The position numbers and the translations under genes were made by a program. Below are positions 74 to 22,527 of a stretch of DNA of 64,000 nt, one piece after another; within the stretch, counting starts at the first letter, position 1, and every line of letters begins with the position of its first letter. The DNA lies in the NCBI GenBank assembly GCA_036275915.1, contig DASUCV010000017.1:62001-126000 (forward strand), in the 5' to 3' direction. Below the pieces are notes generated by a model. The model saw nothing but the letters and a program-made list of their open reading frames with translations. It was not told the DNA's origin and made no database searches. This DNA comes from Candidatus Polarisedimenticolaceae bacterium. Its GTDB lineage: Bacteria; Acidobacteriota; Polarisedimenticolia; Polarisedimenticolales; DASRJG01.

Positions 74-130
74 TGAAATCAAACACTTGTGCAGTTCGTG
101 AAATCCTGCGACTAGGGAAAGCAACCTCGC

Positions 131-142
131 AGTAACCCTGCG
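131..142 (+). repeat. Putative integrase arm-type site, left end
   Basis: AGTAACCCTGCG occurs here, 58 bp inside attL, and again at 14183-14194, about 118 bp inside attR, in the same orientation. Short repeats placed just inside both ends of a tyrosine-integrase element are what arm-type integrase or excisionase sites look like. No binding data; position is the only evidence. The rest of 74-307 shows no convincing gene. Confidence 0.4.
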
Positions 143-307
143 TCGTCGGGTAGTGAAGCCGTGTCCTCATGACTTGCGCTCCCGTCCGCAGGAACGTTGT
201 TAGATGACCTCTTCACTTCGGCAACGATGGAATAGGGCAGCTCGCCCCCGGAGACGGTCGGCTGCGACGTGCTGTCATGCGGCGTTGAAGACATCGATGT
301 ATTCCGA

Positions 308-2158: not shown

Positions 2159-2161
2159 TGG

Positions 2162-4000: not shown

Positions 4001-4097
4001 TCCGCACTCGCCATCATCCGGAAGTTTCTCGCCGCCTGGCGGGGCTGATCATCCGCCCCAGGGCTCGGTAGTCCGAGCGGTCGGACGTTGATCTGGT

Positions 4098-4200
4098 TCA
4101 AGCACCGTTTCGGGACGATTCGAACGACGCGAGAATCGCCGCCTGAAGGCGTCGCTTCACCCCTGGCGAAGCGTCCAACAGTTGGCTTGGCGACGATTCT
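4098..4200 (-). pseudogene. 3' remnant of a second spoVG-like gene
   Basis: On the minus strand, codons from about 4181 read LLDASPGVKRRLQAAILASF and stop at TGA (4100-4098). The intact SpoVG-like protein at 10088-10429 reads LLDVSPGVKARLKSLVLAAY at its C terminus, so about 12 of 20 positions are identical. Upstream in the same frame there is a stop (TGA) about 40 nt before this block and no N-terminal half, so only the tail remains. It lies between the DUF4365-like gene and gajA, suggesting that this end of the element came from a related element by recombination. Confidence 0.6.
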
Positions 4201-4213
4201 CGCCCACACGATT

Positions 4214-5146: not shown

Positions 5147-5469
5147 GGTTAGCCTCGGTGGTTTCTCTTGCGGGCTGATGGAGGGGCGCTGTGCGAAATG
5201 CGTCGTCCAAGATCGGACTAGACCCCTCCTTCAGCGTGTGTCGCGAATTCTACGCCTCTGGGGTGGAAACGATGGGCCATTCTGAGTGGCTTTCGCATGG
5301 ATGCCCGTCACGATGCCCAAGGGCTCGCGAGGCTGGCGAGCGACCTGCTCCCATTCGCTGGACCGGAGTTCGCGAGAGTCCGGTCCCATGCGTCCCATGC
5401 AGACATCGTAGCGGGAGGTCGATGGGCGGTGTAGTAGCCGCCCGTCGAGCTTCTGCTGCGCGCGGCGCG

Positions 5470-5612
5470 AACTCCTCCGGCGTCATGTTGTCCAACGAGC
5501 TGTGAGGCCGGACTTGATTGTAGTCCCGTCGCCACACCTCGATCTTGGCCCGGGCGTCGTGGAGGCTGAGTACACGAAATAGTTTCTCGGGTATACGGCC
5601 TCCTCCGGGTGA
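5470..5612 (-). pseudogene. IS3-family transposase C-terminal remnant
   Basis: One frame reads LSLHDARAKIEVWRRDYNQV and continues RPHSSLDNMTPEEFAPR, the very typical C-terminal end of IS3-family OrfB (DDE integrase core). Upstream of it the similarity ends after about 10 residues, and downstream the frame runs on without recognisable content to 5250. The DDE catalytic residues and OrfA are missing. The remaining bases of 5147-5701 show no other gene; I did not find convincing terminal inverted repeats. It separates the Gabija block from the kinase block. Confidence 0.75.
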
Positions 5613-5701
5613 TCCGCTGCAATCGACGCGCGGCCGAATTCAAGTCGCCCTGGGCCCCGATGGATCTTGGAGTGCCCCACCAGACTGACTGACGCGCAAA
5701 C

Positions 5702-7882: not shown

Positions 7883-7885
7883 GCC

Positions 7886-8662
7886 TCAGTCAATCATGTC
7901 GAGTCGCATCAGCGTGGTGTCGTCGTTTCGGAGTCCGCGGTCCCGTCGCAGTTCGTCAATCCAGTCCGTGAAGGAACGGGTATCGTGCGCCCCAAGCTCC
8001 TGAATCTTCGGCCAAGGATCGTCTCCGCACTCGAGCTGTCGCAGAAGCCATGCCGCTAGTGCGTCCGTTGCTAGGAGAAATTGATCCCCACTCCTCCAGG
8101 TTCCTTGGACACGCTCCGCCGGACGAATCGGTTCGCCCATTCGGCTCGAAATGAGGTTGGGTGTGGATCCGAACTCGGAATGCTGCGTTAGAGGAAATTT
8201 CTTGATGAGTTGCCCGTCGCGGACTACAAACAGATTTGTGTCCCCAATCGCCTCGAACAGGTATGTGCGCGACTCCCCGTTACGCGCCCGCTTTGAGATC
8301 CTGCCAACGATGAGTGTTGACTCTGCTCCACGATCCATCACTGGTTCTTCGTACCATTGAATGGGTCGCCCAGATTCGCTCCGCTGACGGACGTACTCCA
8401 AGAGCTCTGATGCCCAAACCGCTCTAGCGTTCTCGATCCGCCTGCGAAGTGGAAGGCGAGGTGGGGTGGCAAGGACTCTTGAAAGGGTCTGCGCCCATCG
8501 TCCGGACAGATAGCTCTCAGTCGCTCCGTCGCAGAGTGCGAGGGAAAAGGTCTCGCTGTCGAGCGCGCGTTCAGCTTCGTCCGGATACCCGGCGTCGTCG
8601 CACTCGTCGGGACGCGCCCCCACTTTCGGCACCCGGAAGGTGTCCAGATGCAGTTTGAGCAC
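7886..8662 (-). CDS. PP2C-like protein phosphatase (YegK/TerY-P type)
   Basis: A 258-residue compact PP2C fold. The metal-binding motifs are DECDDAG (near residue 19), ALCDGATES (near 43), a central AIGDTN, and a C-terminal RNDDTTLM. These Asp residues bind the Mn/Mg pair of PPM phosphatases. It is shorter than stand-alone PP2C enzymes, as in the YegK group. It lies between the VWA gene (8 nt upstream) and the kinase gene (3 nt downstream), so it probably opposes the kinase on a shared target. Confidence 0.78.
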   Translation of the reverse strand: MLKLHLDTFRVPKVGARPDECDDAGYPDEAERALDSETFSLALCDGATESYLSGRWAQTLSRVLATPPRLPLRRRIENARAVWASELLEYVRQRSESGRPIQWYEEPVMDRGAESTLIVGRISKRARNGESRTYLFEAIGDTNLFVVRDGQLIKKFPLTQHSEFGSTPNLISSRMGEPIRPAERVQGTWRSGDQFLLATDALAAWLLRQLECGDDPWPKIQELGAHDTRSFTDWIDELRRDRGLRNDDTTLMRLDMID

Positions 8663-8670
8663 CTTCGGAC

Positions 8671-9510
8671 CTATCGGAGGTCGGATGCCCGCGTGCCGAT
8701 ATCCAAGAACTGTACGATGGCCGTGGCATCCGCGTTAAACACGAACCCTCTAGTTCCGTCGGTAGGATTCATACCCTGCTGGCGTGCATAACCCGAGAGG
8801 CCAGGAGGGAGTACGCTCGAAATTCTGAACAGCAGCTTCGCATGCTCGTTTGGAAGTCCACTGTCAGAATCCGGAAACAGGACCGGATGACTGCGGTCGG
8901 AAGAAATATGCAGGTTGAAGAGCAGGACATTGCCATCCGCGCTCAGTAGTGTCGTTAGCGCGTCGGCAGCCTGGGTTGGATCGCCGTCGGTGGACTCCCC
9001 GTCAGTGAGGTGCAGGACAATAGGAGGGAAGCATGTCGGATGCGCTGTGAGCCATCCGTCCACCACTGACCGCGCTCGATCGAGAACCTGGCACATCGGC
9101 GTTCCGCCATTCGCGGTAGGCGACACCCACACTGGGAATTTGACCTTCTGCGCCACGAGGCCGCCGGCACCATCGGGGATTTTCTTCTCCCGCTCCTCAA
9201 CCCGCATCGGCGACGACGCGATCTCGCTGATTGGAATCACGTCTCGCCCAGCAAGGCTGCCGCCGAGAATTGGACCCACAGTCGCTCCGTAACCAAGGAC
9301 TCCAACGTTGAAATAGTCACGGACGCCTTCTTCGCGGGCACACCGCAGAGTGAGCTCCGCGAGAAGCCTGTTAAGAGAATCCGCAACGACTTCGGACTTG
9401 CGATGCGCCGATTCACCTCCACCGACGGGATCCTGCATCGAACCAGACTGGTCGACGATGAAAAGAAACGCCGTCGGATTGGACCTGTCGATCGCCGCGC
9501 TATAGCTCAT
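8671..9510 (-). CDS. VWA-domain protein (YegL/TerY-like)
   Basis: A 279-residue protein that is mostly one von Willebrand A domain. The MIDAS motif FIVDQSGSM is near residues 17-25, the second MIDAS Thr lies in the NGGTPM segment (about 137-142), and HLTDGESTDG (near 167) gives the third. There is no signal peptide, so it is cytosolic. A purine-rich stretch GGGGGAGAGGA precedes the ATG. First gene of the VWA-PP2C-kinase operon; in TerY-P triads the VWA protein is thought to bring the kinase and phosphatase together. The 257 bp upstream, shared with the divergent DUF4236 gene, must hold both promoters; I could not pick a clear one. Confidence 0.8.
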   Translation of the reverse strand: MSYSAAIDRSNPTAFLFIVDQSGSMQDPVGGGESAHRKSEVVADSLNRLLAELTLRCAREEGVRDYFNVGVLGYGATVGPILGGSLAGRDVIPISEIASSPMRVEEREKKIPDGAGGLVAQKVKFPVWVSPTANGGTPMCQVLDRARSVVDGWLTAHPTCFPPIVLHLTDGESTDGDPTQAADALTTLLSADGNVLLFNLHISSDRSHPVLFPDSDSGLPNEHAKLLFRISSVLPPGLSGYARQQGMNPTDGTRGFVFNADATAIVQFLDIGTRASDLR

Positions 9511-9767
9511 TCCTCTCCCCCAAGTAGACAGCCTCGCACTCCGCTGAAAAATGGGGCCAAGTGTACTTTCGGAGCTAGGTGTCGCAAAGCCCCATCAAAA
9601 CTGCCGATGCGGGAGGCCGTTCTCCGGGCGGCGCCAAGCGTGCCCCGTCGAACCCTGATTGACGGGTCCTCGTCGGACAGTCGACAGCAAGCGACTCTTC
9701 CTTGCTCGCCTGCGCGAGTGCCGGGACACGATGGGAGTAAGATCGAGCGAAACTAACAAGAGGCATC

Positions 9768-10091
9768 GTGGGCTGGCGATTCAGGAAAGTCTTCAGTAGC
9801 GGACCGGTGCGCGGTACGCTTTCCCGGAGCGGGGTGGGCTGGAGTGTCGGCATTCCTGGCTTTCGGGTGGGAATTTCAGCGACCGGCCAGAGGTACGTCT
9901 CTATCGGGGTTCCTGGGCTCGGGCTTTACTGGGTGAAGTACTTCGGAGGTCGGCGACTTCCTGCTGGTCCGAATCCAACTGCTCCGACCCCGACGTCAGG
10001 GCAGCCACCCCAGCAATCGACCCCGACCTCCGGGCAGCAACCCCAACGTACTCAGTCCACCAATTCTCAATGGTGGAGGAATCGCACCTAG
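9768..10091 (+). CDS. DUF4236 family small protein
   Basis: A 107-residue protein beginning GWRFRKVFSSGPVRGTLSRSG, with the repeated Gly pattern GIPGFRVGISATG and GVPGLGLYW that defines DUF4236. Its last 40 residues are a Pro/Gln/Thr/Ser linker, likely disordered. GTG start preceded by AGAGG at 5 nt. It is the only plus-strand gene of the element and diverges from the VWA operon, so the two may share a control region. Its stop overlaps the end of the convergent spoVG-like gene by 4 nt. Function unknown. Confidence 0.72.
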   Translation: MGWRFRKVFSSGPVRGTLSRSGVGWSVGIPGFRVGISATGQRYVSIGVPGLGLYWVKYFGGRRLPAGPNPTAPTPTSGQPPQQSTPTSGQQPQRTQSTNSQWWRNRT

Positions 10092-10429
10092 GATGCGTTT
10101 GGCTCCAAAGTGGTCGCGCTGGAGCGCGATGCTTCCTCCCGCGTGGTATCGCGTCTCGTGACCGCGTCGTAGGCGGCTAGCACGAGAGATTTCAGTCGAG
10201 CTTTCACGCCTGGCGAGACATCCAGAAGCGGGCGAGAGACCGGCCGGCCGTCCTTCATGTATGAAGTCTCTGGTAGCCCAACCCAAGGCGACTCACCGTC
10301 CTTTGCGACTACCCGAAACCTTGGGATTGCGATCTCGCCAATGGACGTGGAGAACGACACGGTTGCTGTCGCTCTTAGCTGACCGCGCTCTAGGAGCGCG
10401 ATATCGACTCTCACCCCGTCAGGAATCAT
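10088..10429 (-). CDS. SpoVG-like putative nucleic-acid-binding regulator
   Basis: A 113-residue protein. Its core follows the SpoVG pattern: a strand pair around LRATATVSFSTSIGEIAIP, then RVVAKDG, then WVGLPE, then a C-terminal helix with VKARLKSLVLAAY. SpoVG proteins are small site-specific DNA/RNA-binding regulators in Firmicutes; homologues also occur on plasmids. I chose the ATG at 10429 because GGAGG lies 5 nt upstream and the family similarity begins there; a longer frame from 10543 adds 38 unlikely residues. It lies downstream of the HUH replication gene and could control element genes. A truncated paralogue is at 4098-4200. Confidence 0.65.
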   Translation of the reverse strand: MIPDGVRVDIALLERGQLRATATVSFSTSIGEIAIPRFRVVAKDGESPWVGLPETSYMKDGRPVSRPLLDVSPGVKARLKSLVLAAYDAVTRRDTTREEASRSSATTLEPNAS

Positions 10430-10660
10430 TTGAACCTCCGATTGTCGAAGTCGACACACTCTTCCGGTCAAGCAACGGGACCCGCCTCTCGGCGGCCGTC
10501 CCATATCGATCGAGAGGAGACTCGCTTCGCTCTCGACGACCACTTTTAGATTGGGGCTCCGGAAGCGATGTGCCCCCGGAGCCCCGCGCAGACGCTTCCG
10601 TCTGCCCCATCCGGCTCAGGAGTGGTCAACCTGGCCGAACCCTTGATGGTGGCGCGCCAC

Positions 10661-11452
10661 TCAGAATCGGCAGCGCCATCGTCCCTTTGAGACCTCGTCA
10701 CGAAAGAACCGAAGCACCTCGGGATCGACGCCGCGCCGGTGGCAGCTCTCGGCTAGTCCCCTCGCAAGGGGCAGCAATCGCCACCTCCGCTGCAAGTGGC
10801 GCCCCCGCGACCGCGTCTCTCTGAACCATGGGCCACCGAAGTCGATTTCTCCGCCCTTCACGACGTACTTTGAGACGTAGCCAAGGACCTGCTCCCGGTT
10901 CCGCGGCGCTTCGATGCGCGCGAACCCCGCTAGCTTCGTCCAGCGGTCCATCCAGGTGAGGCGTCGAAGATTGCCGACGTCGCCAAAGAGCGCATGAAAG
11001 TGAATGGTCCCTCGGCGTTGGAGCTCGCATCCACGGACCCAACTGACACCAAAGCCTCTCTTCGCCCAACGCGGGCCGTGAAGCTCCCGATTGATTAGGG
11101 AGACGAACAGCATGAAACGCTTGTTCGCTGTCTCGGGGTGAACGATTCCGTTCCGAAACGTAAACGTGCCGATCCACTCCCAGGGGTGTTTCAGGAGAAA
11201 CGCAACCCAAGCGTCCTTCAGCGAACTTGATTGGAGCCGTCTGTCGGCAACTGCCGGCAACACCTCTTCCTTGTTCGCCTCTTGGAAAACCTGTGGACAA
11301 CCCGTGGAAACTGGGTGGAGTCGCCGTGGTCGTTCGTTGGAGTCGACGGGATCGGCGCTTTGGGCAGGCAAGCGTCTTGACCCGACGGCGTCACGCTGCG
11401 ATAGTGACTCGTGCAAGCTGTCTCCTGTTCGCGGCCCGGCAATTCCCTCCAA
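10661..11452 (-). CDS. HUH-type replication initiator (rolling-circle Rep-like)
   Basis: Up to 263 residues. From about residue 78 it looks like a rolling-circle Rep: FTFRNG (motif 1 region, near 97), the metal-binding HUH motif in IHFHALFG (H151 and H153), and the catalytic motif GYVSKYVVKGG with Tyr192 and Tyr196. Such enzymes nick one strand at a replication origin and stay bound through Tyr. The first 77 residues resemble no family, so the real start may be downstream of 11452. Its presence suggests that the excised circle replicates, or uses the nickase for transfer. A relaxase or an inovirus-type Rep are alternatives. Confidence 0.68.
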   Translation of the reverse strand: MEGIAGPRTGDSLHESLSQRDAVGSRRLPAQSADPVDSNERPRRLHPVSTGCPQVFQEANKEEVLPAVADRRLQSSSLKDAWVAFLLKHPWEWIGTFTFRNGIVHPETANKRFMLFVSLINRELHGPRWAKRGFGVSWVRGCELQRRGTIHFHALFGDVGNLRRLTWMDRWTKLAGFARIEAPRNREQVLGYVSKYVVKGGEIDFGGPWFRETRSRGRHLQRRWRLLPLARGLAESCHRRGVDPEVLRFFRDEVSKGRWRCRF

Positions 11453-11476
11453 GGTCGTGCCGGTGTCGCGCTGACG

Positions 11477-11510
11477 AAGCCTGACCGCACTTCGCGTTCA
11501 GGCTTTTTTT
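11477..11510 (+). terminator. Rho-independent terminator, plus strand
   Basis: AAGCCTGA (11477-11484) and TCAGGCTT (11498-11505) form a perfect 8-bp stem with a 13-nt loop, followed by a run of T to 11510. The T run serves only plus-strand transcription, yet no plus-strand gene lies nearby. It sits in the leader of the minus-strand rep gene, so it may end an antisense RNA. Confidence 0.65.
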
Positions 11511-11554
11511 CTGGCTCCTCGTCGGTGACGCCAACTCCGCTTGCGCGCCTTGAT

Positions 11555-11737
11555 CTAATCGTCGAGCGCTTCCGAAGCGTCACCCTCTTCCTCGACGTCG
11601 CCTTCTTCGTCGTCATCCTCGTCGTCTAGACCGAGGGCATCGGCGACGATTTCATCGAGCTCTTCGACTCGGAAACGCGCCTGCTCCAAGGCGTCGCGAA
11701 GCTGACCGTTTTCCCGCTGCAGCTCTCGTTTCGTCAT
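11555..11737 (-). CDS. Small acidic coiled-coil protein
   Basis: A 60-residue protein starting MTKRELQRENGQLRDALEQA, a short predicted coiled coil, and ending in a strongly acidic tail of Asp and Glu. ATG start with GAGGA 7 nt upstream; the ATG overlaps the stop of the upstream excisionase gene (ATGA), which supports translation. No family recognised. It lies between excisionase and rep and may be an accessory or replication-control protein. Confidence 0.55.
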   Translation of the reverse strand: MTKRELQRENGQLRDALEQARFRVEELDEIVADALGLDDEDDDEEGDVEEEGDASEALDD

Positions 11738-11973
11738 GCACGATTCCTCACGTCCGAATGCGTCGGGAGTGTCATGGGGGGCTCTGAAGTGCTTGCGCGT
11801 CGACGACGCTTCAACCATTCGTCGAGCGTGTCGATGTCGTAGCCAACGGCGCGCGGGCCAAGCTGAACGAACTCCGGCCCGTTGCCCGTTAGGCGGCGCT
11901 TCTCAAGTGTTGACGCGGCCAGACCGATGTATGTCGCCGCTTCCGGGGTCCGGAGAATTCGCTTCGCGGTCAT
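11734..11973 (-). CDS. AlpA/MerR-like excisionase (HTH_17)
   Basis: A 79-residue winged-helix protein with the typical pattern ILRTPEAATYIGLAASTLEK, then FVQLGPRAVGYDIDTLDEWL, as in AlpA and element excisionases. The ATG at 11973 is preferred over GTG 11988 because GAGGG precedes it closely. Such proteins bend DNA at attachment sites to favour excision and can also regulate integrase. It overlaps the next small gene by ATGA and belongs to the integrase-excisionase-rep block. Confidence 0.8.
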   Translation of the reverse strand: MTAKRILRTPEAATYIGLAASTLEKRRLTGNGPEFVQLGPRAVGYDIDTLDEWLKRRRRASTSEPPMTLPTHSDVRNRA

Positions 11974-12051
11974 CGGTCCCTCTATCACCGGGGCGCATCG
12001 CCGGGCGAGAGAAACCTACCGCGTGATTACGTTGGCGATTCCGTCACGATT

Positions 12052-12780
12052 TCAATTCGCAGCCGGAACGTTTGTGATGGAACTCTTTGGGCCGCTCCGC
12101 TTCCACGACTTGGGAACGAACTTGCGCCAAGCATCGATGAACGCCACGCGCGAGTAGTTTGTTCCGAGTTCTCGGTTGGCGTCGGCCATCGCCTTCTCTT
12201 TGCGCGAAGGTTGAACCCCCACCGCGACCAATCGCTGGACCCATTCCGTCGTTCGCCGCTTTGCCTGTGCTCGCGGTGTCCCCGCGAGCGCGTACCGAAG
12301 ATCGGTCAACTCGAATCCTGGTCCTGCCGCAATTCCATGTCGAAGGTTGACGCTCAAGCTCTGCCAGCGCATCCGGTGGACTTCCACCGGTCCAGCAGAA
12401 GCGGGAGTGCGGTTGTCGAAACCCGTAGCAACCAGCGTCCCGCTGCGCAGTAGGCGGAGGAGTGCGTCTTGTGCCGTCGCGCGTTTCGATAGGAAGTCCA
12501 GGTGCGCGATATTGCGGGGATCCGATTGCACTTCGCTCGGGCCTCCGCTTGGAAGGGTCGCACCGCTACACTCCGCCAGCTCTTCCGCGAGCTCCCACTC
12601 GCGAGTGCATTCATTGCTCGCGCCGTTCAGCGCAGCAGCCTCACTCGGGCAGAAGATCCCAAGTGCCTCTTCATACGGGTAGCTTCGTCGCCGCAACGCG
12701 CCGGCGACGTCGCGGCGCTGCATGCGCGGGTTTGTCACCGGGCGCTGCTCTCGGGATGTCGTCTTTCGCGGAAGTTCCAC
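12052..12780 (-). CDS. Hypothetical protein of the element
   Basis: 242 residues, not recognised. It starts 11 nt downstream of the integrase stop, so it is probably cotranscribed with it. The C-terminal 80 residues are basic and helix-rich (AFIDAWRKFVPKSWKRSGPK), suggesting nucleic-acid binding; no signal peptide or membrane segment. Many ORFs of tRNA-integrated elements sit at this place between int and xis. The reading frame is long and composition fits the element, so it is likely real. Confidence 0.5.
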   Translation of the reverse strand: MELPRKTTSREQRPVTNPRMQRRDVAGALRRRSYPYEEALGIFCPSEAAALNGASNECTREWELAEELAECSGATLPSGGPSEVQSDPRNIAHLDFLSKRATAQDALLRLLRSGTLVATGFDNRTPASAGPVEVHRMRWQSLSVNLRHGIAAGPGFELTDLRYALAGTPRAQAKRRTTEWVQRLVAVGVQPSRKEKAMADANRELGTNYSRVAFIDAWRKFVPKSWKRSGPKSSITNVPAAN

Positions 12781-12791
12781 AGTGTTATCTC

Positions 12792-14249
12792 CTATATCTG
12801 GCGCGCTCCGACGGAAAGAAGCGCTTCCGGGGTGGCCTGAGTTTCGACTTCCGGCATCGTCCGCACAGCCCTATTCGCAGCCAGAGGCCGAAGAGGGACG
12901 ATTACTACCTGTTTCCCGGTAGCGGTCAGCGCCGCAGCGATGCGTGCGGACACGCTTTCGGCCGCGGTCTGATGTGGGTGATCCCCAAGGTGTGCGTAAC
13001 GAGCTGTCGTCGTCGCCTGCTTGTGGCCGAGCAGCGCGCCGATAACAAGGAGGCTCGACCCTCCGATTGCAGCAACGCTGGCAAAGGTGTGTCGCAAATC
13101 GTGAAGGCGGACGTCGACCATGCCGGCATGCCGTCGGATGCGATGCCAAACGTGCGGAAGTCCGACGAAGTGACTCGGCTCCATGCTTCGGCCTGGGAAT
13201 ACGTAGGGGTTGCCGGCGACACGCGGCAATCCATCCAGGAGCTGGACCGCGCAAGCGCCAAGAGGAACGATTCTTGGTCCCGTCTTCGATTCTGTGAGTC
13301 GAAGGCAATTGCGGGTGCTATCGACATGCTCCCACTTGAGGGTCACGATCTCGGAGAGTCGACAACCTGTGAACAACAACATTCGAATTGCCGCCGTCGC
13401 AAACGGGGAGACCGGGATCGCGTGGAGAGGACGCCGCCCCCGGGGTTTATCGCGGGTCAGCAGTCCTTCCTCCTCCGCGACGCTCAGCGCCTCCCCCAGC
13501 CTTGCTAGCTCGGTATCGGATAGGAACCGTTCTCGCCGCTTCTCTCGAAATCTCTCGACATGCCGGCAGGGATTCGTACCGTCCGCCCGTATCCCCCACT
13601 TCTCGGCGAGGTTCATCATTTTCGAGAGGAGCGCTAGAACCCGATTCGCCTGGATTGGTGTCGGCCCCAATTCGAGGTGAAGGCGCGTCGCGTCCACTCG
13701 CGTGACGGCCATGACCTTGAGATTGCCGAGCCGCGGCTTGATGTGCCTCTCAAGGAGTCGTTTGTCGTCGCGGACGCTGTTCGGTTTCTTCTTCCGCTCC
13801 GCGTGGTCGCGGATGTAGCGCTCTGCCAATTCCTTCACCGTTAGCGCGCGCCTCTCCGACTGACGGACCTCTGCGGGGTCTCCGCCCTTGGCGACCTCGA
13901 CTTTGAGCTGGAATGCCTCTTTGCGCGCGGCATCCGGCGTCCAGGGCGCTCCGTGGCGCCCGATGGTCACCCGCCTCTTCCGCCTCCCCTTGGAGTACTG
14001 GAAGACGTAGGACCGCGTTCCGGCAGGGGTGACTTTGAGTCCGAATCCCGGCAGCTCGGAGTCCCAGCAAAATGTGTCGCGCAGGGCGGGCCGGAGCGCG
14101 TCGATCGTTCTCTTAGTGAGCTTCGTTCCCTTCACTCGACGTCCCACTGAGTCGGAGTCAGTAGGTTCCGCAGTCACCCTGTAGTAACCCTGCGGCAACC
14201 GTTCGCGAAGGTACGAGGGGGTACACGCGGATACAAGGGAAGAGGTCAA
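12792..14249 (-). CDS. int: Tyrosine recombinase/integrase, P4 type
   Basis: 485 residues in the longest frame. The N-terminal DUF4102-like arm-binding domain has GTKLTKRTIDAL and LPGFGLKVTPAGTRSYVFQY (about 41-85). A core-binding helical domain follows (about 135-230). The catalytic domain has Arg in TGCRLSE (R297), Lys in ESKTG (K322), LHDLRHTFAS (H383, R386), LLGHK (H409) and the nucleophile in ARYAHL (Y418). All six catalytic positions are present, so it should be active. The conserved part starts near residue 39 and the first codons overlap repeat sites (14172-14194), so GTG 14147 or GTG 14135 are plausible true starts. It recombines the tRNA-Thr 3' end. Confidence 0.93.
   Translation of the reverse strand: MTSSLVSACTPSYLRERLPQGYYRVTAEPTDSDSVGRRVKGTKLTKRTIDALRPALRDTFCWDSELPGFGLKVTPAGTRSYVFQYSKGRRKRRVTIGRHGAPWTPDAARKEAFQLKVEVAKGGDPAEVRQSERRALTVKELAERYIRDHAERKKKPNSVRDDKRLLERHIKPRLGNLKVMAVTRVDATRLHLELGPTPIQANRVLALLSKMMNLAEKWGIRADGTNPCRHVERFREKRRERFLSDTELARLGEALSVAEEEGLLTRDKPRGRRPLHAIPVSPFATAAIRMLLFTGCRLSEIVTLKWEHVDSTRNCLRLTESKTGPRIVPLGACAVQLLDGLPRVAGNPYVFPGRSMEPSHFVGLPHVWHRIRRHAGMVDVRLHDLRHTFASVAAIGGSSLLVIGALLGHKQATTTARYAHLGDHPHQTAAESVSARIAAALTATGKQVVIVPLRPLAANRAVRTMPEVETQATPEALLSVGARQI
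14172..14194 (+). repeat. Putative integrase arm-type sites, right end
   Basis: AGTCACCCTGT (14172-14182) is followed directly by AGTAACCCTGCG (14183-14194), a tandem of one imperfect and one exact copy of the 12-mer found at 131-142. They lie within the first codons of the longest integrase reading frame. This favours a later integrase start codon and makes autoregulation by the integrase possible. Confidence 0.4.
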
Positions 14250-14311
14250 CTCATTGAAAAAAAGAGACTAGAGGAAACTTGCGGAAACAGCCGGCAAGAC
14301 GCGAACGGCGT

Positions 14312-14356
14312 TTCGTAATCAGCAGGTCCCCAGTTCAAGTCTGGGTGCCGGCTCCA
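14312..14356 (+). repeat. Displaced tRNA-Thr 3' fragment (attR)
   Basis: This is an exact copy of the tRNA 3' half starting at the anticodon loop. No acceptor 5' strand or D arm precedes it, so it is not a tRNA gene. It marks the right end of the element; chromosomal sequence with the RiPP locus starts directly after it. Confidence 0.93.
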
Positions 14357-14370
14357 AAACACCTTGATCC

Positions 14371-14399
14371 TTGACTTCGACCCGCGAGGCGCGTAGCTA
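14371..14399 (+). promoter_or_regulatory. Possible promoter of the RiPP locus
   Basis: TTGACT (14371-14376) is followed 17 nt later by TAGCTA (14394-14399), about 37 nt before the first precursor ATG. The -35 is good but the -10 matches the consensus poorly. It lies only 15 nt outside attR, so the element's insertion sits right next to the locus's control region. Confidence 0.3.
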
Positions 14400-14435
14400 A
14401 GGCAGGCGTGCGCCCCGCACGAGAAGGAGGTAGAA

Positions 14436-14591
14436 ATGAACGAACGAGCCCCGATGGTCTTGGATCTGGAAGTGGAGGAGATCGAGAGACGCGAGCGCTC
14501 AGGCGGATGCTTGACCTCGTCGAGCACCTCCCGGCTGTGCACCTGTGCCTGTCGCTACACCACCACGATTTCGGCGCAAGCGAAAAGCTGA
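14436..14591 (+). CDS. RiPP precursor peptide 1 (class I lanthipeptide/thiopeptide-like)
   Basis: A 51-residue peptide with a strong Shine-Dalgarno (GAAGGAGG, 5 nt before ATG). The leader, residues 1-24, contains MVLDLEVEEIERRERSGG; the LDLEV part resembles the FNLD-type box that LanB enzymes recognise, and it ends in GG. The core, 25-51, is CLTSSSTSRLCTCACR followed by YTTTISAQAKS: four Cys (25, 35, 37, 39) and eleven Ser/Thr. A second peptide of identical length follows 18 nt downstream, then a split LanB dehydratase. Dehydration of Ser/Thr is expected; whether thioether rings form is unknown because no cyclase gene is present. Confidence 0.85.
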   Translation: MNERAPMVLDLEVEEIERRERSGGCLTSSSTSRLCTCACRYTTTISAQAKS

Positions 14592-14609
14592 GCGTCGCGG
14601 AGGATACCG

Positions 14610-14765
14610 ATGAAGGATCAGACCCCGTTCGTCCTGGATCTCGAGGTGGAAGAGATCGAGCGCCGCGAGCGCAGCGGCGGATGCTCGACCTCGTCGAGCA
14701 CGTCGCGTCTGTGCACGTGCCCCTGCAGGGAAACGACGACGATCCTCACGCACGCCAAGAGCTGA
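14610..14765 (+). CDS. RiPP precursor peptide 2 (paralogue of peptide 1)
   Basis: 51 residues, GGAGG 6 nt before ATG. The leader contains FVLDLEVEEIERRERSGG, with a full FxLD box (F7-V-L-D10), and from residue 8 to 24 it is identical to peptide 1. The core is CSTSSSTSRLCTCPCR followed by ETTTILTHAKS, with the same four Cys positions (25, 35, 37, 39). The differences are clustered (L/S26, A/P38, Y/E41, then S/L, A/T, Q/H), as expected when two products diverge while ring-forming residues are kept. This conservation is the best evidence that both small frames are real genes. Confidence 0.87.
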   Translation: MKDQTPFVLDLEVEEIERRERSGGCSTSSSTSRLCTCPCRETTTILTHAKS

Positions 14766-14783
14766 GGAACGCGCGACCGGAGG

Positions 14784-15662
14784 ATGGGGGTTCTCCGGTC
14801 GCCGCGCGCCATGCGCCCCGACGAATCCTGCCTCTACACCCTCTTCCACGCGCCGAGGGAGCACCACGAAGCGATCCTCGCGCGCTTCGTCATCCCGATC
14901 GTGCGCGAGCTGCGCGATGCGGGCGACCTCGACTGCATCTTCTTCGCGCGCTACTCCGAGCCGGATTGGCAGCTCCGCTTCCGGGTCCTCGGGCGTCCGG
15001 CGTGGGTCGACGGTCCGGTCAAGCGCCGCATCCAGTCATCGCTGCCCCAGGTGATCGATGCCGGCCTCGCGACCCACGTGGATTTCGCCCGCTACGAGCG
15101 TGAGTGGGACCGCTACGGCGGCGAGCACGGAATGATGCTCGCCGAGCAGATCTTCCTCCACGACTCGCTCGCCAGCCTCGACCTCATCGAGGCGGAAGGC
15201 CGCGGCGAGCTCGTGAAGAGCCGTCGCGAGTACAGCCTCCTCTTCGTCGAGCGATTCCTCGATCTCGTAGGGTTCGATCGCCCGGCGCGCCTCGCCTTCT
15301 ACGAGTTCGGGCATTCGTGGCCGATCCGGGACGGAGATTGGACCCCCTTGGACATGGAAACGCTTTCGGCGAAGTACGAGGCGCTGAAGCCCGGCCTCGT
15401 CGAGCTGCTCACCGGGTCCGATGACGTCTGGGGCGGACCGCGCGCGGCGGCGATCGCGACCGGAGCGCTCTCGGCCATGGCCCCGGTCGCCTCGCAGGTG
15501 CGCGCCGGCCTCGCCGACCGATCGATCACCGCGGATCCGATCAACCTCGTCTGGAGCTACATGCACATGCACTGCAACCGCCTCGGGATCGACGCGATGC
15601 CCGAAGCGATCCTCCGCTACTTCATGTGGCGGCTCCACGACGAGGTCGATCTCGCCGCATGA
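14784..15662 (+). CDS. Split LanB elimination-domain protein (thiopeptide-type, SpaB_C)
   Basis: A 292-residue protein of the thiopeptide-type bacteriocin biosynthesis family. Diagnostic segments are CIFFARYSEPDWQLRFRVLG (near residue 50) and YEREWDRYGGEHGMMLAEQIF (about 102), where the RYGG and aE..F motifs are typical. In split LanB systems this protein removes glutamate from glutamylated Ser/Thr to give dehydroalanine or dehydrobutyrine. ATG 14784 has no usable Shine-Dalgarno (GGAGG touches it); ATG 14811, starting MRPDESCLY, is an alternative that keeps all conserved sequence. Its stop overlaps the next gene's ATG (ATGA), so the two enzymes are translationally coupled. Confidence 0.85.
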   Translation: MGVLRSPRAMRPDESCLYTLFHAPREHHEAILARFVIPIVRELRDAGDLDCIFFARYSEPDWQLRFRVLGRPAWVDGPVKRRIQSSLPQVIDAGLATHVDFARYEREWDRYGGEHGMMLAEQIFLHDSLASLDLIEAEGRGELVKSRREYSLLFVERFLDLVGFDRPARLAFYEFGHSWPIRDGDWTPLDMETLSAKYEALKPGLVELLTGSDDVWGGPRAAAIATGALSAMAPVASQVRAGLADRSITADPINLVWSYMHMHCNRLGIDAMPEAILRYFMWRLHDEVDLAA

Positions 15663-18148
15663 GGCGTCTTCTCTTACTCAGGCACGCGACGCGTCCGTTC
15701 TCTTCGCTCCACGACATCGCCGGTGCTTCGGACGGGCGCGCGGCCGATGTACTCACCGGCGCTGAAGCACGCCTCGACGACGAGGCCGATGCGCTCGTGG
15801 CGCTCCTCCACCGTGAAGCCGGGCCGAGTTCGGAAGGTGGTGCGCCACGGAGGAACGCGATCCTCGCGCTCAAACGCGACGCGCACAACCGGCGTCCGCT
15901 TCGATCCGAGGATCTCGAGACCAGCGGCCTCCCATGCGAAGGATACCGAAGCTCTCTCGCCGATCTCGCGGCGGCGGAGGCGGAATGGGCGCGCGCGTTC
16001 GACGACGGCGAGGATCGCGCGCGACGTGCCTTGACGGGAGCCGTCCGCGATCCGCTCGTCCTCGCCGGCCTCGCGTCGGCGAGCGGGCCGCTCGCAGGGA
16101 AGCTCGCGCGGCTCCAAGCGGTCGCAGCCGAGCGCTGGGGACACGGCGAGCGGCACGTTGCGGCGAAAGCGGCGGCGTACCTCGCGCGGTTCGCCACCAA
16201 GACGAGCCCGAACTCGGTCTTCTGCGCCGTCGGGCTCGCGTTCGCCGACGACGGGCCCGCCGCCCTCTCCGGCACGCCGTCGATCGCGCGGATGGACCTG
16301 AGCTTGAGCGTCGCGGAAGCGCGGAAGATCGCCGTCGTCGCGGCGGGCGATCCCGCCCTCGAACCGATCGTGCATCCACGGCCGAACCCCACGCTGCGCG
16401 AGGCGGAAGGCGGGCTCTCGTTCTGGCGCTTCGCGTCCCTCAGGCGCGCCGACGACGATGAGACGCTGTCGCGTGTGAAAGATCATCCCGTGCTGCGGAC
16501 GGCGCTCACGGCCGCGGCGTCGCACCCCACGCTCACCGATCTCGTCCGTGCCGTCGCCCAAGCCTCGGGGATCGATGAGGCGTCGGTCGCGCGCTTCATC
16601 GGCCAGATGATCGAGCGCGGCGTCCTCGTCGGAGAGGTCGAGATCCCGTTCACCGAGCGCCGTCCGCTCCGCTACGTCGCGCTCGCGGCGCGGGCCGTCC
16701 GTCCCCCGCCCGCGTGGGTCGCGTCGGCCTTGGCCATCGAGGAAGAGGTCGATCGCGCCCAAGACCTCCCGTTCGAGAGCGACGAGCGCGCGGCCGCGAT
16801 GAGCGGGATCGCGTACGCCCTCGAGTCCCTTCCTCACGTCCGGCCGTTACGCTCCGACGAGTTGTTCCGGATCGACGCGGCGTCGGCGCTGTCGCTGCGC
16901 CTGCCGATCGCCGTCGCGCTGGATCTCGAGCGCGGGATCCGTCCGTACCTCCGCCTGTTCACGGCACTCTACCCGGCGCGCCGCTACCTCCAGGGGTGGG
17001 TCGACCGATTTCTCTCGACGTTTCCCGCGGGCCACGACGTTCCGATGCTCGACGTTTACCAGGCGATCACCGAGCAGGACGATTCGTACCGCCCCGCTGC
17101 GTTCCCCGAGCCTGCCGCGAACGATCCCGAGGATCCGTCGCGCCGCGCGCTCGCCGCCGTCCGCAACCTCGTCATCGAGCGCGCACGCGCCGGCGGTCCC
17201 GTCACGCTCGACGACGCCGACCTCGACCGTGTCGTCGGAACGGGGCCGGCGTTCCGGTGGGCGGCCGGCATCCTGTTCCAGATCGCGGCTCGCGATCTCG
17301 CGAGCCTTTCATCCGGCGACTACCGGATCGTCCTGAACGGAGTCTTCCACGGCGCGGGCCTCTCGCTCTCCCGCTTCGCGCACCTGCTCGGCGACGACGT
17401 CGTCACCGAGCTGAAGCGCGCGTGGTCGGTCGTCGAGCGACCCGGCGCGATCGTCGCCGAGCTCACGTACAACCACGGCGGACGCACGGCGAACGCCGGT
17501 CTCAGGCCGGCGATCTTCGAGCACGAGATCGAGCTGCCGGGGGATTGCGCCTCCCCCGGAGCGCGGACGATCGCGCTCCGCGATCTGGCCGTGCGCTGGG
17601 ATCCGGAAGGCGATCGGTTCGTCCTCTTCCGGGTCGCGGACGGGGTCGAGGTGATCCCGGTCATCAACAGCGGCGTGAACCCGGTCGGCTTCGTCTCGTT
17701 CCTCGTCGCGATCGGCGAGCAGGGGCTGCAGCCGGTCTCGTACTTCCCCGGTTTCGAAGCCGACGGCGTCACGCATTGGCCCCGTGTGATGAGCGGACGC
17801 GTGATTCTCTTCCGTGAGCGGTGGACGTTCGGTCCTGCCGACCGCCCGCCCTTGGCCGCGCGCGGCGACGACCTCCGCTCGTTCGCACGCGGGGTCCTCT
17901 CCTGGCGGCGGCGCCACGGCCTTCCGCGTCACGTCTTCGCGTTCACGACGAGGGAGCCGAAGCCGCGCTACGTCGACCTCGCGTCGCCGCCGTTCCTCGA
18001 TCTCCTGCGGCGCGACCTCCAAGCGCTCGGAAGCGAGCCCGAAGGCCGCCTCCACGTGAGCGAGATGCTCCCGGGGCCCGACGAGCTGTGGGCCGGCGGG
18101 CACGCCTCCGAGTTCCTCTGCCAGATGAGCGGCGAGCTACGAGGGTAG
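15659..18148 (+). CDS. Split LanB glutamylation-domain protein (lantibiotic dehydratase N-terminal)
   Basis: 829 residues from the ATG that overlaps the previous stop. It starts with LLLRHATRPFSSL, matching the LanB N-terminal RxPxxPF strand. FATKTSPNSVFCAVGLAF (about residues 180-197) matches the Lant_dehydr_N segment R.s.k.tP.g.F. This half of LanB uses glutamyl-tRNA(Glu) to glutamylate Ser and Thr in a leader-bound precursor. In thiopeptide and pyritide pathways the two LanB halves are separate genes, as here, but normally together with YcaO and cycloaddition enzymes, which are absent. Its end overlaps a convergent Mur-ligase gene by 12 nt. Confidence 0.85.
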   Translation: MRRLLLLRHATRPFSSLHDIAGASDGRAADVLTGAEARLDDEADALVALLHREAGPSSEGGAPRRNAILALKRDAHNRRPLRSEDLETSGLPCEGYRSSLADLAAAEAEWARAFDDGEDRARRALTGAVRDPLVLAGLASASGPLAGKLARLQAVAAERWGHGERHVAAKAAAYLARFATKTSPNSVFCAVGLAFADDGPAALSGTPSIARMDLSLSVAEARKIAVVAAGDPALEPIVHPRPNPTLREAEGGLSFWRFASLRRADDDETLSRVKDHPVLRTALTAAASHPTLTDLVRAVAQASGIDEASVARFIGQMIERGVLVGEVEIPFTERRPLRYVALAARAVRPPPAWVASALAIEEEVDRAQDLPFESDERAAAMSGIAYALESLPHVRPLRSDELFRIDAASALSLRLPIAVALDLERGIRPYLRLFTALYPARRYLQGWVDRFLSTFPAGHDVPMLDVYQAITEQDDSYRPAAFPEPAANDPEDPSRRALAAVRNLVIERARAGGPVTLDDADLDRVVGTGPAFRWAAGILFQIAARDLASLSSGDYRIVLNGVFHGAGLSLSRFAHLLGDDVVTELKRAWSVVERPGAIVAELTYNHGGRTANAGLRPAIFEHEIELPGDCASPGARTIALRDLAVRWDPEGDRFVLFRVADGVEVIPVINSGVNPVGFVSFLVAIGEQGLQPVSYFPGFEADGVTHWPRVMSGRVILFRERWTFGPADRPPLAARGDDLRSFARGVLSWRRRHGLPRHVFAFTTREPKPRYVDLASPPFLDLLRRDLQALGSEPEGRLHVSEMLPGPDELWAGGHASEFLCQMSGELRG

Positions 18149-19735
18149 CGGCGAGCCCGCCCGCCAGCGCGCGCGATCGAGCCGGTCGATGAGGTCGAAG
18201 ACCTCGCCGCGGCTCGCGTGCGTCGTCAGCACGAGGAGGTCGCCGGGACGCGCCCACGCGAGAGCCAGCTCCGCCGCCTCGACCTCGCTTGCGGCGTGGA
18301 GGATGCTGCCCGGGTCTGCACCGAGCCGCGTCAGCTCGTCCGTGATGACGCGCGGGATCTCCCCCACGGCGCGGCCGCGCAGGTAGCTGCTCATCTCCTT
18401 GACGACGACCGCGTCGGGCCGGAGACGGAACGCGGCGCGCACGAGCGCCCGGATCGCCTCATCGTCCCGGTCCCCCGCCTGTCCGACGACGAGCAAGCGC
18501 CGCGCCGCGCCGAGCGTCTTGGCGACGTCGACGAGCGCCTCCATGCCGTGCGGGTTGTGCGCGTAGTCGATGAGCACCGTCGCCCCGCCGAGCGGGATCA
18601 CGTTGAGACGGCCCGGGTTGTCCTCGCGCCGGCTCCGGAATGAGGCCAGGCCCGAGGCGACGGCGGAGTCCGGGAACCCGAGCGCCCGCGCGAGCAGCGC
18701 GGCGGCCATCGCATTCGCCACGTTGTGCCTCGCCGCACCGCCGAACGCGGACGGGATGCGCTCGACGTCCAGGAGGCGTCCCGCATCCGCGAGCGCGAAC
18801 CATGCGACCGGTGCTCCGACCTCCGCAGCGCGGGCCTTCAGGATCGGATCGTCGGCGTTGAGGACGACCGTTCCCTCGGGCTTGACCGCGCGCGCGACGA
18901 CCATCTTCACGTCGGCGATGTCGTTCAATCCATGGATCCCGAACTCGCCGAGATGGTCCTCCGCGACGTTCGTGATCGCCGCCGCGTCGATGCGCGGGAC
19001 GACGAGGCCGCGCCTCTGGATCCCGCCGCGCGCGGTCTCGAGCACGGCGACGTCGACGCGTGCGTCGCGCAGAATTCGTCGCGCGCCCTCGGGGCCCGAA
19101 TAGTCGCCCGAGCCGATCGCCTCGCCGCCGACCGCGAGGCCGTCGGTGGTGCTGAGGCCGGCGCACCGTCCCGCGGCCGCCGCGATGGCCCCGAGCATCC
19201 GCACGGTCGTGCTCTTGCCGTTGGTCCCGGTCACCATCGCCACCGGAACGTCGTGCACGCGCTCCCACGGCACGTCTCGCGGCGGCGGCAAAGACTCGAT
19301 CGGAAAGGAGACGTGGCCCCCTCCCATCCCGAGGCTGACCTCGTGGCCGTCGGCGACGAACGCGACGCCTCGCCGGGCCGCTTCGTCGCGAAGCTCGATC
19401 AGCGCGGGATTCCTCTCCTCAGCGATGCTGCGGCCTAGATCTTCGAGCGCACCGTCGCCCGCGGCATCCCACGCGGCCTCGTTGACCTCGGTCGCGGCGT
19501 AGAGTGCGTCGGGGGGTGCGGTCAGGAAGAGGCTGAGATCGCCGCCCGAGGCACGCCACGACGTACGCTCGCCCTCCCACCCCACGGCCGCAAGGAGCCG
19601 GCGCGCCGCCCCGTTCCAGACGCGAGCGACCGTCTCGGGCTCTTCGCCTTCGAGGCGCACGTCGAGGATCGCCCCGGGCGCGTCGCCGAACAGGCTCGCG
19701 CCCGTCAGACGCCGCGAATCGACGCGGACCGCCAT
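18137..19735 (-). CDS. Mur-ligase family cyanophycin synthetase-like protein (CphA'-like)
   Basis: 532 residues. The first 160 are a distinct N-terminal domain with no ATP-grasp fold. The Mur-ligase part follows: P-loop TGTNGKST (about 169-176), VLETARGG, NVAEDHLGEFGIH, VVLNADDP, DYAHNPHGMEAL, GDRDDE. These match the C-terminal half of CphA, which adds Arg to the Asp backbone. It lies directly downstream of full-length cphA (8 nt between), so it probably works with it or with a related amide-bond reaction. The name CphA' has been used for short cphA paralogues; activity here is unknown. Confidence 0.75.
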   Translation of the reverse strand: MAVRVDSRRLTGASLFGDAPGAILDVRLEGEEPETVARVWNGAARRLLAAVGWEGERTSWRASGGDLSLFLTAPPDALYAATEVNEAAWDAAGDGALEDLGRSIAEERNPALIELRDEAARRGVAFVADGHEVSLGMGGGHVSFPIESLPPPRDVPWERVHDVPVAMVTGTNGKSTTVRMLGAIAAAAGRCAGLSTTDGLAVGGEAIGSGDYSGPEGARRILRDARVDVAVLETARGGIQRRGLVVPRIDAAAITNVAEDHLGEFGIHGLNDIADVKMVVARAVKPEGTVVLNADDPILKARAAEVGAPVAWFALADAGRLLDVERIPSAFGGAARHNVANAMAAALLARALGFPDSAVASGLASFRSRREDNPGRLNVIPLGGATVLIDYAHNPHGMEALVDVAKTLGAARRLLVVGQAGDRDDEAIRALVRAAFRLRPDAVVVKEMSSYLRGRAVGEIPRVITDELTRLGADPGSILHAASEVEAAELALAWARPGDLLVLTTHASRGEVFDLIDRLDRARWRAGSPLPS

Positions 19736-19743
19736 CGCCGGGC

Positions 19744-22527
19744 CTAGTCGTCCGCGTCCAGGGGAAGCCAGACGCCGCGCTCGTCGCGCATGAGCGGCGC
19801 CGCCGCGTCGTAGACCGGGACCTCGTCGTCCGAGGGCAGCGCAACCGGCGGGGCCGCGGCACGTTCGGGAACCGCCGCCGCCTCCGGGCGGAAGTAGATG
19901 ATCTGCTTCCAGCAGCGGTTGATCGCGTCGCCGAACACGAGGAGGAGATCGCCCGGGGCGCAGGCGCGGAGCGCCGCGTCGACGGCGTCGGCCTCGCTCG
20001 GAATGACGGCGATCGCCTGGTCCGGCACGCCGTGCTCGAGGAGCGCGTCGCGCAGCATCCGTGGGATCTCGTCGGCGCCGCGGCCCCTCAGGCCGTCGTC
20101 ACGGCGACAGACGTACCGGTCGAAGACGCCGGCGGCGTGCCGCGCGATCTCGCGGACGTCCTCGTCGCGACGGTCTCCCGGAGCGGCGAGGACGCAGGTC
20201 TTCCGCCCCTTCGTTTCGAGGCGGCGCACCATGCGGCACATCGCCTCGACCGCGGCGGGATTGTGGGCGTAGTCGAGAATGACCTTGAAGCCGTGTTCGT
20301 CGAAGATGTTCATGCGGCCCGGCGCCTGGAAGAACGAGGTGTCGAAGGTCCGGAGGCCGTGGCGGATGTTCTCGAGCTTGACCCCCATCGCGTAGGAGAT
20401 CGCCGCGGCGAACATCGCGTTCTGGACGTTGTGCATCGCCTTCCCCTCGATCGTCGCGGGGATGAGATGCGTCCAGAGGAGCGGCATGTGCGCGCCCTTG
20501 TCGTAGAGGGTGATCATCTGCCCGTTGATCCCCTCCTCGAGCACGACGGCACGGCCGCCGGCGCGGATGTGCTCCTTCACGAGGCCGTGCCCCGGATTCA
20601 TCGTCGCGTAGCAGATCGACGCGGCGTCGGTGTGCCCGGCCATCTTGAGGCAGAGCGGGTCGTCGGCGTTCAGGACCGCGGTGTCGCGCGCGACCTCGAT
20701 GATGATCCTCTTGACCTTGGCGAGGTCCTCGAGCGTGCCGATGCCCCGCAGCCCGAGGTGGTCGGCGGACACGTTGAGGCACGCCGCGACGTTGCACCAG
20801 CGGTAGCCCATCCCCGCGCGCAGCAGACCGCCGCGCGCCTGTTCGAGGACGGCGACGTCGACCGACGGATCGCGCAGGACCATCCGCGACGCGATCGGCC
20901 CCGTCATGTCGCCGTCGACGGTGCGGTGCCCGTCGATGTAGACGCCGTCGGTCGTGGCGAGCCCGACCACGTTCCCGTTGAGCTTGAAGACGTGCGCCAC
21001 CATCCGCGCCGTCGTCGTTTTGCCGTTGGTGCCGGTGATCGCGGCGATCGGAATGCGCGACGGCGTCCCCGGCGGGAAGAGCATGTCGATGACCGGCCCG
21101 GCAACATCGCGCGGCGTGCCCTCGGAAGGGGCGACGTGCATCCGGAACCCCGGCGCGGCGTTGACCTCGCAGATGGCGCCGCCGGACTCGCGGTACGACT
21201 TGCTGATGTCGTGCGTGAGGAAGTCGACGCCGCAGACGTCGAGACCGATCGACTTCGCCGCGCGCACCGCCATCTCGCGATTGTCCGGGTGCACGATGTC
21301 GGTCACGTCGACCGCCGTGCCGCCCGTCGACAGGTTGCCGGTCGCGCGGAGGTAGACGACCTCGCCCTCGGGAGGAACCGAGGCGCGGTCATGTCCCGCC
21401 CGCGCGAGCAGGCGCTCGGCCTGCTGGTCGAAGATCAGCTTCGTCAGGACCTTCTCGTGCCCGATGCCGCGCCGCGGATCGGCGTTGACGAGCTCGACCA
21501 GCTCCTCCACCGTGTGGACGCCGTCGCCGACCACGTGCCCCGGGACGCGCTTGCTCACCGCGACGAGCGCCCCGTCGACGACGAGCATGCGATGGTCCTC
21601 GCCGGTGATGAACCCTTCGACGATGACGCTGCGCGCGTGCTGGCGCGCCTGCTGGAAGGCGGCGCGAACCTGCTCCGCGTCGGCCATCCCGATCGAGACG
21701 CCGCGTCCGTGGTTCGCGTTGTAAGGCTTGAGCACCACCGGATAGCCGATGCTCTCGGCGGCCCTTACCGCTTCCTCCTCGCCGGTCACGAGCTTCTGCT
21801 TGGGGACCGGGAGGCCGAGATCGCCGAGGAGGCGGTTCGTCTCTTCCTTGTCGGACGCGATCTCGACGGCGATGTGCCGGGTCTCGCTCGTCACCGTCGC
21901 CTGGAGGCGCTTCTGGAGCCGGCCGTGGCCGAGCTGCACGAGCGAATACTCATTGAGCCGGATCCACGGGATCTCGCGCTTCTCCGCCGCCCGGACGAGC
22001 GACGCCGTCGACGGCCCGAGCGCGCGGCGCTGCGCGAAGCGGATGAACGCATCGCGCTCCTCGGCGAAATCGAACGCGGCGGGAACCGCGTGCGGAGGGC
22101 GAAGATCCTCGGGCAGGAGCGAGGCGAGCAGCGTCAGCGCGAGTCGGCCGGCCTCCGTGCCGACCTCGGCCTGATCGTACTCATAGACGATCTCGTACTG
22201 GCCGGCGGCGTCCGCGCTCCGCGTCTTGCCGAACGTGACCGGCGTTCCAGCGACGTTCTGCAGCTCGATCGCCGCGTGCTCGAGGACGTGGCCGAGCCAC
22301 GTCCCCTCGTCCTCGCGCATGCGCCGGAGGAAGCCGCCGGGCTCGCCGTACGAGCAGCCGTGCTCCGCGAGCCCCGGCAACGCCTCGACGAGCTTCGACT
22401 GGAAGCCGTCGCCGAGCCGGCCGGTCGGCCACGCCTCGAGCGGACCCAGGTCGACGACGAGACGGATGACGGGGAAGCGCGCGTAAAGGCTCGGCCCGAG
22501 ATAGACGGAGCGCTGGACGACCTTCAC
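19744..22527 (-). CDS. cphA: Cyanophycin synthetase
   Basis: 927 residues from GTG 22527, close to the family length. N-terminal domain starts VKVVQRSVYLGPSLYARFPV as expected. The ATP-grasp domain follows (about 220-480), with PVVLKPYNANHGRGVSIG and CEVNAAPGFRMH. The Mur-ligase domain has ITGTNGKTTTARMVAHVF and DYAHNPAAVEAM. The ATP-grasp half adds Asp and the Mur half adds Arg, building multi-L-arginyl-poly-L-aspartate granules. A longer frame to 22704 has a Ser/Arg-rich shadow extension and was rejected. It starts 4 nt after the cyanophycinase stop, and so is in one operon with cphB and the CphA-like gene. Confidence 0.93.
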   Translation of the reverse strand: MKVVQRSVYLGPSLYARFPVIRLVVDLGPLEAWPTGRLGDGFQSKLVEALPGLAEHGCSYGEPGGFLRRMREDEGTWLGHVLEHAAIELQNVAGTPVTFGKTRSADAAGQYEIVYEYDQAEVGTEAGRLALTLLASLLPEDLRPPHAVPAAFDFAEERDAFIRFAQRRALGPSTASLVRAAEKREIPWIRLNEYSLVQLGHGRLQKRLQATVTSETRHIAVEIASDKEETNRLLGDLGLPVPKQKLVTGEEEAVRAAESIGYPVVLKPYNANHGRGVSIGMADAEQVRAAFQQARQHARSVIVEGFITGEDHRMLVVDGALVAVSKRVPGHVVGDGVHTVEELVELVNADPRRGIGHEKVLTKLIFDQQAERLLARAGHDRASVPPEGEVVYLRATGNLSTGGTAVDVTDIVHPDNREMAVRAAKSIGLDVCGVDFLTHDISKSYRESGGAICEVNAAPGFRMHVAPSEGTPRDVAGPVIDMLFPPGTPSRIPIAAITGTNGKTTTARMVAHVFKLNGNVVGLATTDGVYIDGHRTVDGDMTGPIASRMVLRDPSVDVAVLEQARGGLLRAGMGYRWCNVAACLNVSADHLGLRGIGTLEDLAKVKRIIIEVARDTAVLNADDPLCLKMAGHTDAASICYATMNPGHGLVKEHIRAGGRAVVLEEGINGQMITLYDKGAHMPLLWTHLIPATIEGKAMHNVQNAMFAAAISYAMGVKLENIRHGLRTFDTSFFQAPGRMNIFDEHGFKVILDYAHNPAAVEAMCRMVRRLETKGRKTCVLAAPGDRRDEDVREIARHAAGVFDRYVCRRDDGLRGRGADEIPRMLRDALLEHGVPDQAIAVIPSEADAVDAALRACAPGDLLLVFGDAINRCWKQIIYFRPEAAAVPERAAAPPVALPSDDEVPVYDAAAPLMRDERGVWLPLDADD

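Follow-up and report, generated by a model that had tools for sequence, protein, structure and literature searches.

A candidate minimal RiPP system of Acidobacteriota combining a split LanB with dispersed cysteine-rich precursors

Mining for thiopeptides is usually anchored on YcaO. Genome mining for lanthipeptides has been anchored on LanC-domain proteins (PMC7268733), and the Acidobacteriota family analyzed here is easily missed because it lacks both anchors. Among described pathways, the pyritide cluster of Micromonospora rosaria contains two precursors, MroB, MroC and MroD, with no azole genes; MroC and MroD are both IPR023809 proteins, the precursors have no cysteine, and the leader leaves as a carboxamide (PMC9247985). 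Split LanB proteins are also found in class I lanthipeptide pathways such as that of pinensin (PMC7268733) and in thiopeptide and goadsporin pathways (TbtB and GodF type). Prochlorosins are made by one class II modifying system, ProcM, acting on many dispersed ProcA precursors with a conserved leader (PMC10783134), and the tha and the clusters of Thermoanaerobaculia encode RiPPs with Cys-rich cores (PMC13083261).

The locus we examined shares features with each of these. Like the pyritide pathway it is a minimal split-LanB system that has a pair of precursors and lacks azole genes, most family members have a second TIGR03891-type protein, and the leader is of an LDL/acidic type; however, the cores are Cys-rich, the second TIGR03891 protein is on another contig, the precursors are dispersed, and the second protein (type 2, below) is indistinguishable by fold from elimination domains. 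The Glu-tRNA-type enzyme pair, the Ser/Thr/Cys core and an LxLE motif akin to FxLD recall split-LanB class I lanthipeptides, but the locus has neither LanC (found nowhere in three of the genomes) nor a C39 transporter. The PDB structures nearest to the P0004 profile are TbtB (6ec7) and a goadsporin biosynthetic protein (9jhq), both from split systems, although, unlike in thiopeptide and goadsporin pathways, YcaO was detected in none of the six family genomes, with positive controls, so that no standard azoles are expected. The organization with one modifying system, many dispersed precursors and a conserved leader is that of the prochlorosins, which differ in having LanM enzymes, Nif11-type leaders and hypervariable cores where the cores here are conserved. 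The tha and the clusters are Cys-rich RiPPs of the same class, but use LanM and a GMC oxidoreductase, neither of which is present here. We interpret the locus as a minimal Acidobacteriota RiPP system whose peptides are dehydrated by a split LanB and probably thioether-bridged without LanC or YcaO, a reading to which we assign a probability of about 0.7.

The locus spans positions 14436-18148 of the window (the whole 64,000-nucleotide stretch of DNA that was analyzed) and consists of two precursor genes, an elimination-type protein and a glutamylation-type LanB protein (Table 1). For P0003 a start at 14811 is preferred to the first ATG at 14784 because of the length of its homologues.

Table 1. 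Positions of the locus features in the window and the evidence for each
Feature	Position	Strand	Evidence
Shine-Dalgarno-like GGAGGT before precursor 1	14426..14431	+	sequence
Precursor peptide 1 (P0001), 51 aa	14436..14591	+	translation; profile match 9.2e-23; codon-position pattern
Precursor peptide 2 (P0002), 51 aa	14610..14765	+	translation; profile match 2.2e-22
P0003, elimination-type LanB protein, type 1 (TIGR03891/PF14028)	14811..15662	+	domain searches; catalytic residues; fold
P0004, glutamylation-type LanB protein (PF04738), 829 aa	15659..18148	+	domain search; homologues 43-55% identical

The translations confirm the initial annotation in that both precursors have the same length, identical residues 8-24, and cysteines at positions 25, 35, 37 and 39. 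The leader of P0001 is LDLEVEEIERRERSGG and its core begins CLTSSSTSRLCTCAC; the core of P0002 begins CSTSSSTSRLCTCPC, and the two peptides are 78% identical. Their genes differ at 38 bases, distributed 10/4/24 over codon positions 1/2/3, and of 29 codons that differ, 18 still encode the same residue; because the differences favor third positions and silent codons, both frames are translated and under selection at the protein level. Strong ribosome binding sites had been proposed for both genes, which holds for P0001 (GGAGG), but the site of P0002, GCGGAGGAT, is weaker.

Alignment of 24 precursors, from which the profile was built, reveals a common leader, LxLEVEEIE, in which L9, L11 and E17 are invariant, with E12 present in 23 and E14 in 22 of the sequences. 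The FxLD box initially assigned to the leader thus survives as an LxLE variant, with two hydrophobic positions and one acidic position kept and x variable. The core follows the pattern C-x8/9-CTC, with S29, T31, C35, T36 and C37 invariant; cysteine is invariant at three places in the core, and Cys39 is present in half of the precursors (12/24). The T31-xxx-C35 spacing would give a methyllanthionine ring of common size. Neither the proposal that GG marks the cleavage site nor that of a two-component product finds support: Gly24 occurs in only 12/24 precursors and C39 double-glycine peptidases are missing from three of six genomes, and each genome has two to five precursors, many of them orphans, with one core common to all. 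No Pfam or NCBIfam model matches the precursors, and none of the 24 matched TIGR04363, which we take to be the NCBIfam model for FxLD-family lanthipeptide precursors, up to E 10, a search in which filters may drop weak hits.

The split LanB reported beside the precursors is borne out by separate proteins, P0003 matching PF14028 (2.4e-40) and TIGR03891 (2.5e-35) and P0004 matching PF04738 (1.4e-70), whose adjacent genes overlap by ATGA. P0003 residues R58, E98, R101 and H252 correspond to NisB R786, E823, R826 and H961, the catalytic residues of elimination. Its AlphaFold model (pLDDT 92) best matches LanB elimination domains, followed closely by the [4+2] pyridine synthases. When a single LanB_N homologue was searched against the PDB, there was no match. 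From these sequences we predict with high confidence that P0003 and P0004 carry out Glu-tRNA-dependent dehydration. An alternative explanation would make P0004 a peptide aminoacyl-tRNA ligase (PEARL) that adds amino acids to the peptide, which would act as a scaffold; its 829 residues and its domain fit a PEARL and a split LanB alike, and LanC is lacking. We consider this very improbable, since P0004 overlaps an elimination protein that has retained its catalytic residues, and PEARLs typically have no such partner (PMC11962472). Furthermore, the PEARL-specific arginine, TglB R803, lies two residues past a shared glutamate and is replaced by leucine in split LanBs (PMC10979984); the corresponding position in P0004 would be Leu820, within an E818-x-L820 motif that is invariant in seven family members, by a mapping carried on beyond the point where the HMMER alignment stops.

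Homologues of P0004 with 43-55% identity are present in G004 (two), G010, G016, G019 (two) and G024, so that with the genome containing the window the family occurs in six of 41 class genomes, the class name Thermoanaerobaculia being taken from the named MAGs among the relatives. The same gene set is found in these five genomes and in the soil MAGs with loci L063 and L065. A search for related loci using P0003 alone found none, and one using a LanB_N alignment found four. A lack of precursor homologues beside the split LanB genes of related genomes had been named in advance as a result that would refute the initial annotation; precursors in fact adjoin most P0004 homologues, usually one or two, with at least two on G019 contig C1 and four in tandem at L065. 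The genomes with precursors are exactly the six with LanB_N (chance 2e-7, in genomes that share ancestry and are thus not fully independent), and strong matches to the precursor profile occur only in these six within the class, and in six of the 396 phylum genomes. Nucleotide-pattern searches for the core were uninformative, with many chance matches and a reversed-pattern control equally frequent; matches in G001, G022, G026 and G036 were inspected and contain no precursor-like frame. The named relatives are Acidobacteriota (class Thermoanaerobaculia, and one gp7 MAG) and one Rokubacteria MAG, whose locus (L066) has both enzymes, a precursor not being found there by pattern. On plasmids, all LanB relatives among the 20 records listed are distant, with less than 33% identity. 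Within the data searched, the family thus appears confined to Acidobacteriota, mainly class Thermoanaerobaculia, and this Rokubacteria MAG. The open-access papers searched contain no description of these small cysteine-rich peptides, a family of soil Acidobacteria that had not been named before and whose members apparently all depend on a single shared two-part enzyme for dehydration.

LanC is absent from G004, G016 and G024, which are 96-100% complete, and C39 peptidases are absent from G010, G016 and G024, ruling them out as the general leader protease in those three genomes. Where LanC does occur it belongs to other systems, a cluster on contig C22 in the genome containing the window and a LanC domain within a LanM-sized protein in G019. 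The C22 cluster (L014, 6534-14487) is a canonical class I lanthipeptide cluster with a full-length LanB of 1050 aa, LanC, a C39-ABC transporter and further exporters. Its LanC could act in trans at our locus. A further alternative is that the peptides are ordinary class I lanthipeptides borrowing LanC, protease and transporter from this cluster. This alternative is quite improbable: C22 does supply a full LanB, LanC and C39-ABC transporter, but the family persists in the genomes named above that lack LanC or C39 peptidases, and where the C22 LanB aligns with P0003 and P0004, identity is only about 27%. The suggestion that the product is completed by genes elsewhere is only partly sustained, in that the genome containing the window holds more precursors and more elimination-type genes away from the locus, as well as the C22 LanC and C39 transporter, but three relatives have no LanC and none has YcaO. 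Each genome is a MAG broken into many contigs, so that a cyclase could have been missed, and one of an unfamiliar family could be present.

Another full-length LanB with LanC-like neighbors is located in G011 (L097, 8151-14907), a genome without the new family. In G019, two small secreted-looking proteins (L098, 4020-4355, PIRICKCS; L029, 9615-9965, PTRICKCH) have like C-termini; the gene of one directly follows the split LanB, and that of the other lies close to a class II LanM-like gene.

The lack of a cyclase gene in three genomes or near the locus would also fit a linear dehydropeptide without thioether rings, its cysteines free or disulfide-bonded and possibly serving in redox chemistry, metal binding or trapping of electrophiles. 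Cysteines adjoining several Dha or Dhb residues are, however, expected to react spontaneously, and the invariant spacing from Ser/Thr to Cys suggests rings; we therefore regard a linear product as rather unlikely.

The genes are not gathered in one place. The genome containing the window has five precursors on four contigs (two on C17, which carries the locus, and one each on C20, C18 and C11) and one P0004-like gene, on C17; the C20 precursor is accompanied by two elimination-type proteins, and those on C18 and C11 are orphans, which could be relics. The precursors of G004 likewise number five, on contigs C2, C16, C40 (two) and C149, and contig C31 of G016 has an elimination-type gene with no precursor. 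Enzymes and substrates are thus spread beyond any single cluster, and with five precursors to one LanB, two orphans and further elimination-type genes on C20, the enzymes probably act in trans; on these gene counts we place moderate confidence in a split-LanB pair serving scattered precursors. One G004 locus (L068, 3160-6854) contains three elimination-type paralogs with one precursor between them and another after, and a methyltransferase, without a glutamylation-type LanB. A SAM methyltransferase is also added at L030, L031 and L070, and the methyltransferases that were scanned bear a distant likeness to the daptide methyltransferase model but fall well short of its cut-off.

Elimination-type proteins fall into two types. 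Eleven of twelve type-1 proteins keep the equivalents of all four NisB residues, the exception, on G004 contig C2, having leucine at R786; type-2 paralogs lack one or more of them. Type 2 is present in five of the six genomes and missing in G024. In a phylogeny of the elimination proteins type 2 does not form one clade, and these proteins are duplicates from within the family. The AlphaFold model of a type-2 protein (pLDDT 90) matches LanB elimination domains with Z 23 and [4+2] enzymes with Z about 20; with matches this nearly equal, fold does not decide function for either type.

Type-2 proteins are central to the best rival explanation, a pyritide- or thiopeptide-like route that is likewise encoded by a minimal split-LanB cluster without azoles. 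In this route a type-2 TIGR03891 paralog (for example on C20, L011:8750-9571) would join two Dha residues by [4+2] cycloaddition, so that a pyridine macrocycle forms and the leader is released; this would account for the lack of a protease. The pyritide cluster follows the same logic and its MroA1 leader, DLDLAVDEE, resembles those here (PMC9247985); furthermore, type 2 has lost NisB-type residues, and only the type-2 profile reached TbtD (E 0.02, in one search and not in a second). Nevertheless, this route seems unlikely to us, since the type-2 model fits LanB elimination no worse than [4+2] closure and type 1 behaves alike, the paralogs are intra-family duplicates and not a single clade, G024 and the window locus lack a second elimination-type protein, and cysteine is invariant here but missing from pyritide precursors. 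That type-2 paralogs were instead recruited as a new enzyme closing rings between Dha or Dhb and Cys in place of LanC is a speculative idea of similarly low probability; if true, one genome-wide split-LanB toolkit would yield a dispersed set of bridged peptides and need no cyclase of a known family.

In the thioether-bridged reading that we prefer, P0004 would use glutamyl-tRNA to glutamylate core Ser/Thr residues of any peptide with the LxLEVEEIE leader, and P0003 would remove glutamate to give Dha or Dhb, one enzyme pair serving scattered precursors in trans as a one-enzyme, many-substrate pathway. Cysteines of the C-x8/9-CTC motif would most likely add to upstream Dha or Dhb (for example C35 to T31), forming thioether rings. 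Closure without LanC or YcaO would be spontaneous, or aided by diverged elimination paralogs where these are present; it is the weakest step, and our confidence in thioether closure without LanC is low to moderate. The genes may also be compatible with free cysteines, disulfides or pyridine-type closure. Leader removal and export would fall to general cell functions or to other genes. A Glu-tRNA dehydratase with trans-acting, dispersed-precursor organization is suggested, and the two-gene enzyme set and conserved Cys-rich core make the six-genome comparison a clean test of ring closure free of LanC and YcaO.

No LanC-type cyclase or type-2 elimination paralog is present at the window locus, and the absence of LanC, YcaO, protease and transporter genes noted initially is upheld by the neighboring genes, Mur-ligase/cyanophycin-synthetase-like on the right and an integrase on the left. 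One of the former encodes a cyanophycin synthetase, and the other is of the Mur-ligase type and cyanophycin-synthetase-like (both within 18137-22527, minus strand). On the left, a 14.3 kb element of lower G+C is integrated in tRNA-Thr(CGT) (29-14356), bounded by a 45-bp tRNA-Thr direct repeat at 29-73 and 14312-14356 and containing a tyrosine integrase gene (12792-14249, minus strand). Bases 14312-14356 are the attR copy of the repeat and lie outside the RiPP locus, the element ending 80 bp upstream of the first precursor gene. G+C rises to the right of attR, from about 0.60 within the element to about 0.70 beyond it, which assigns the RiPP genes to the host and not to the integrated element.
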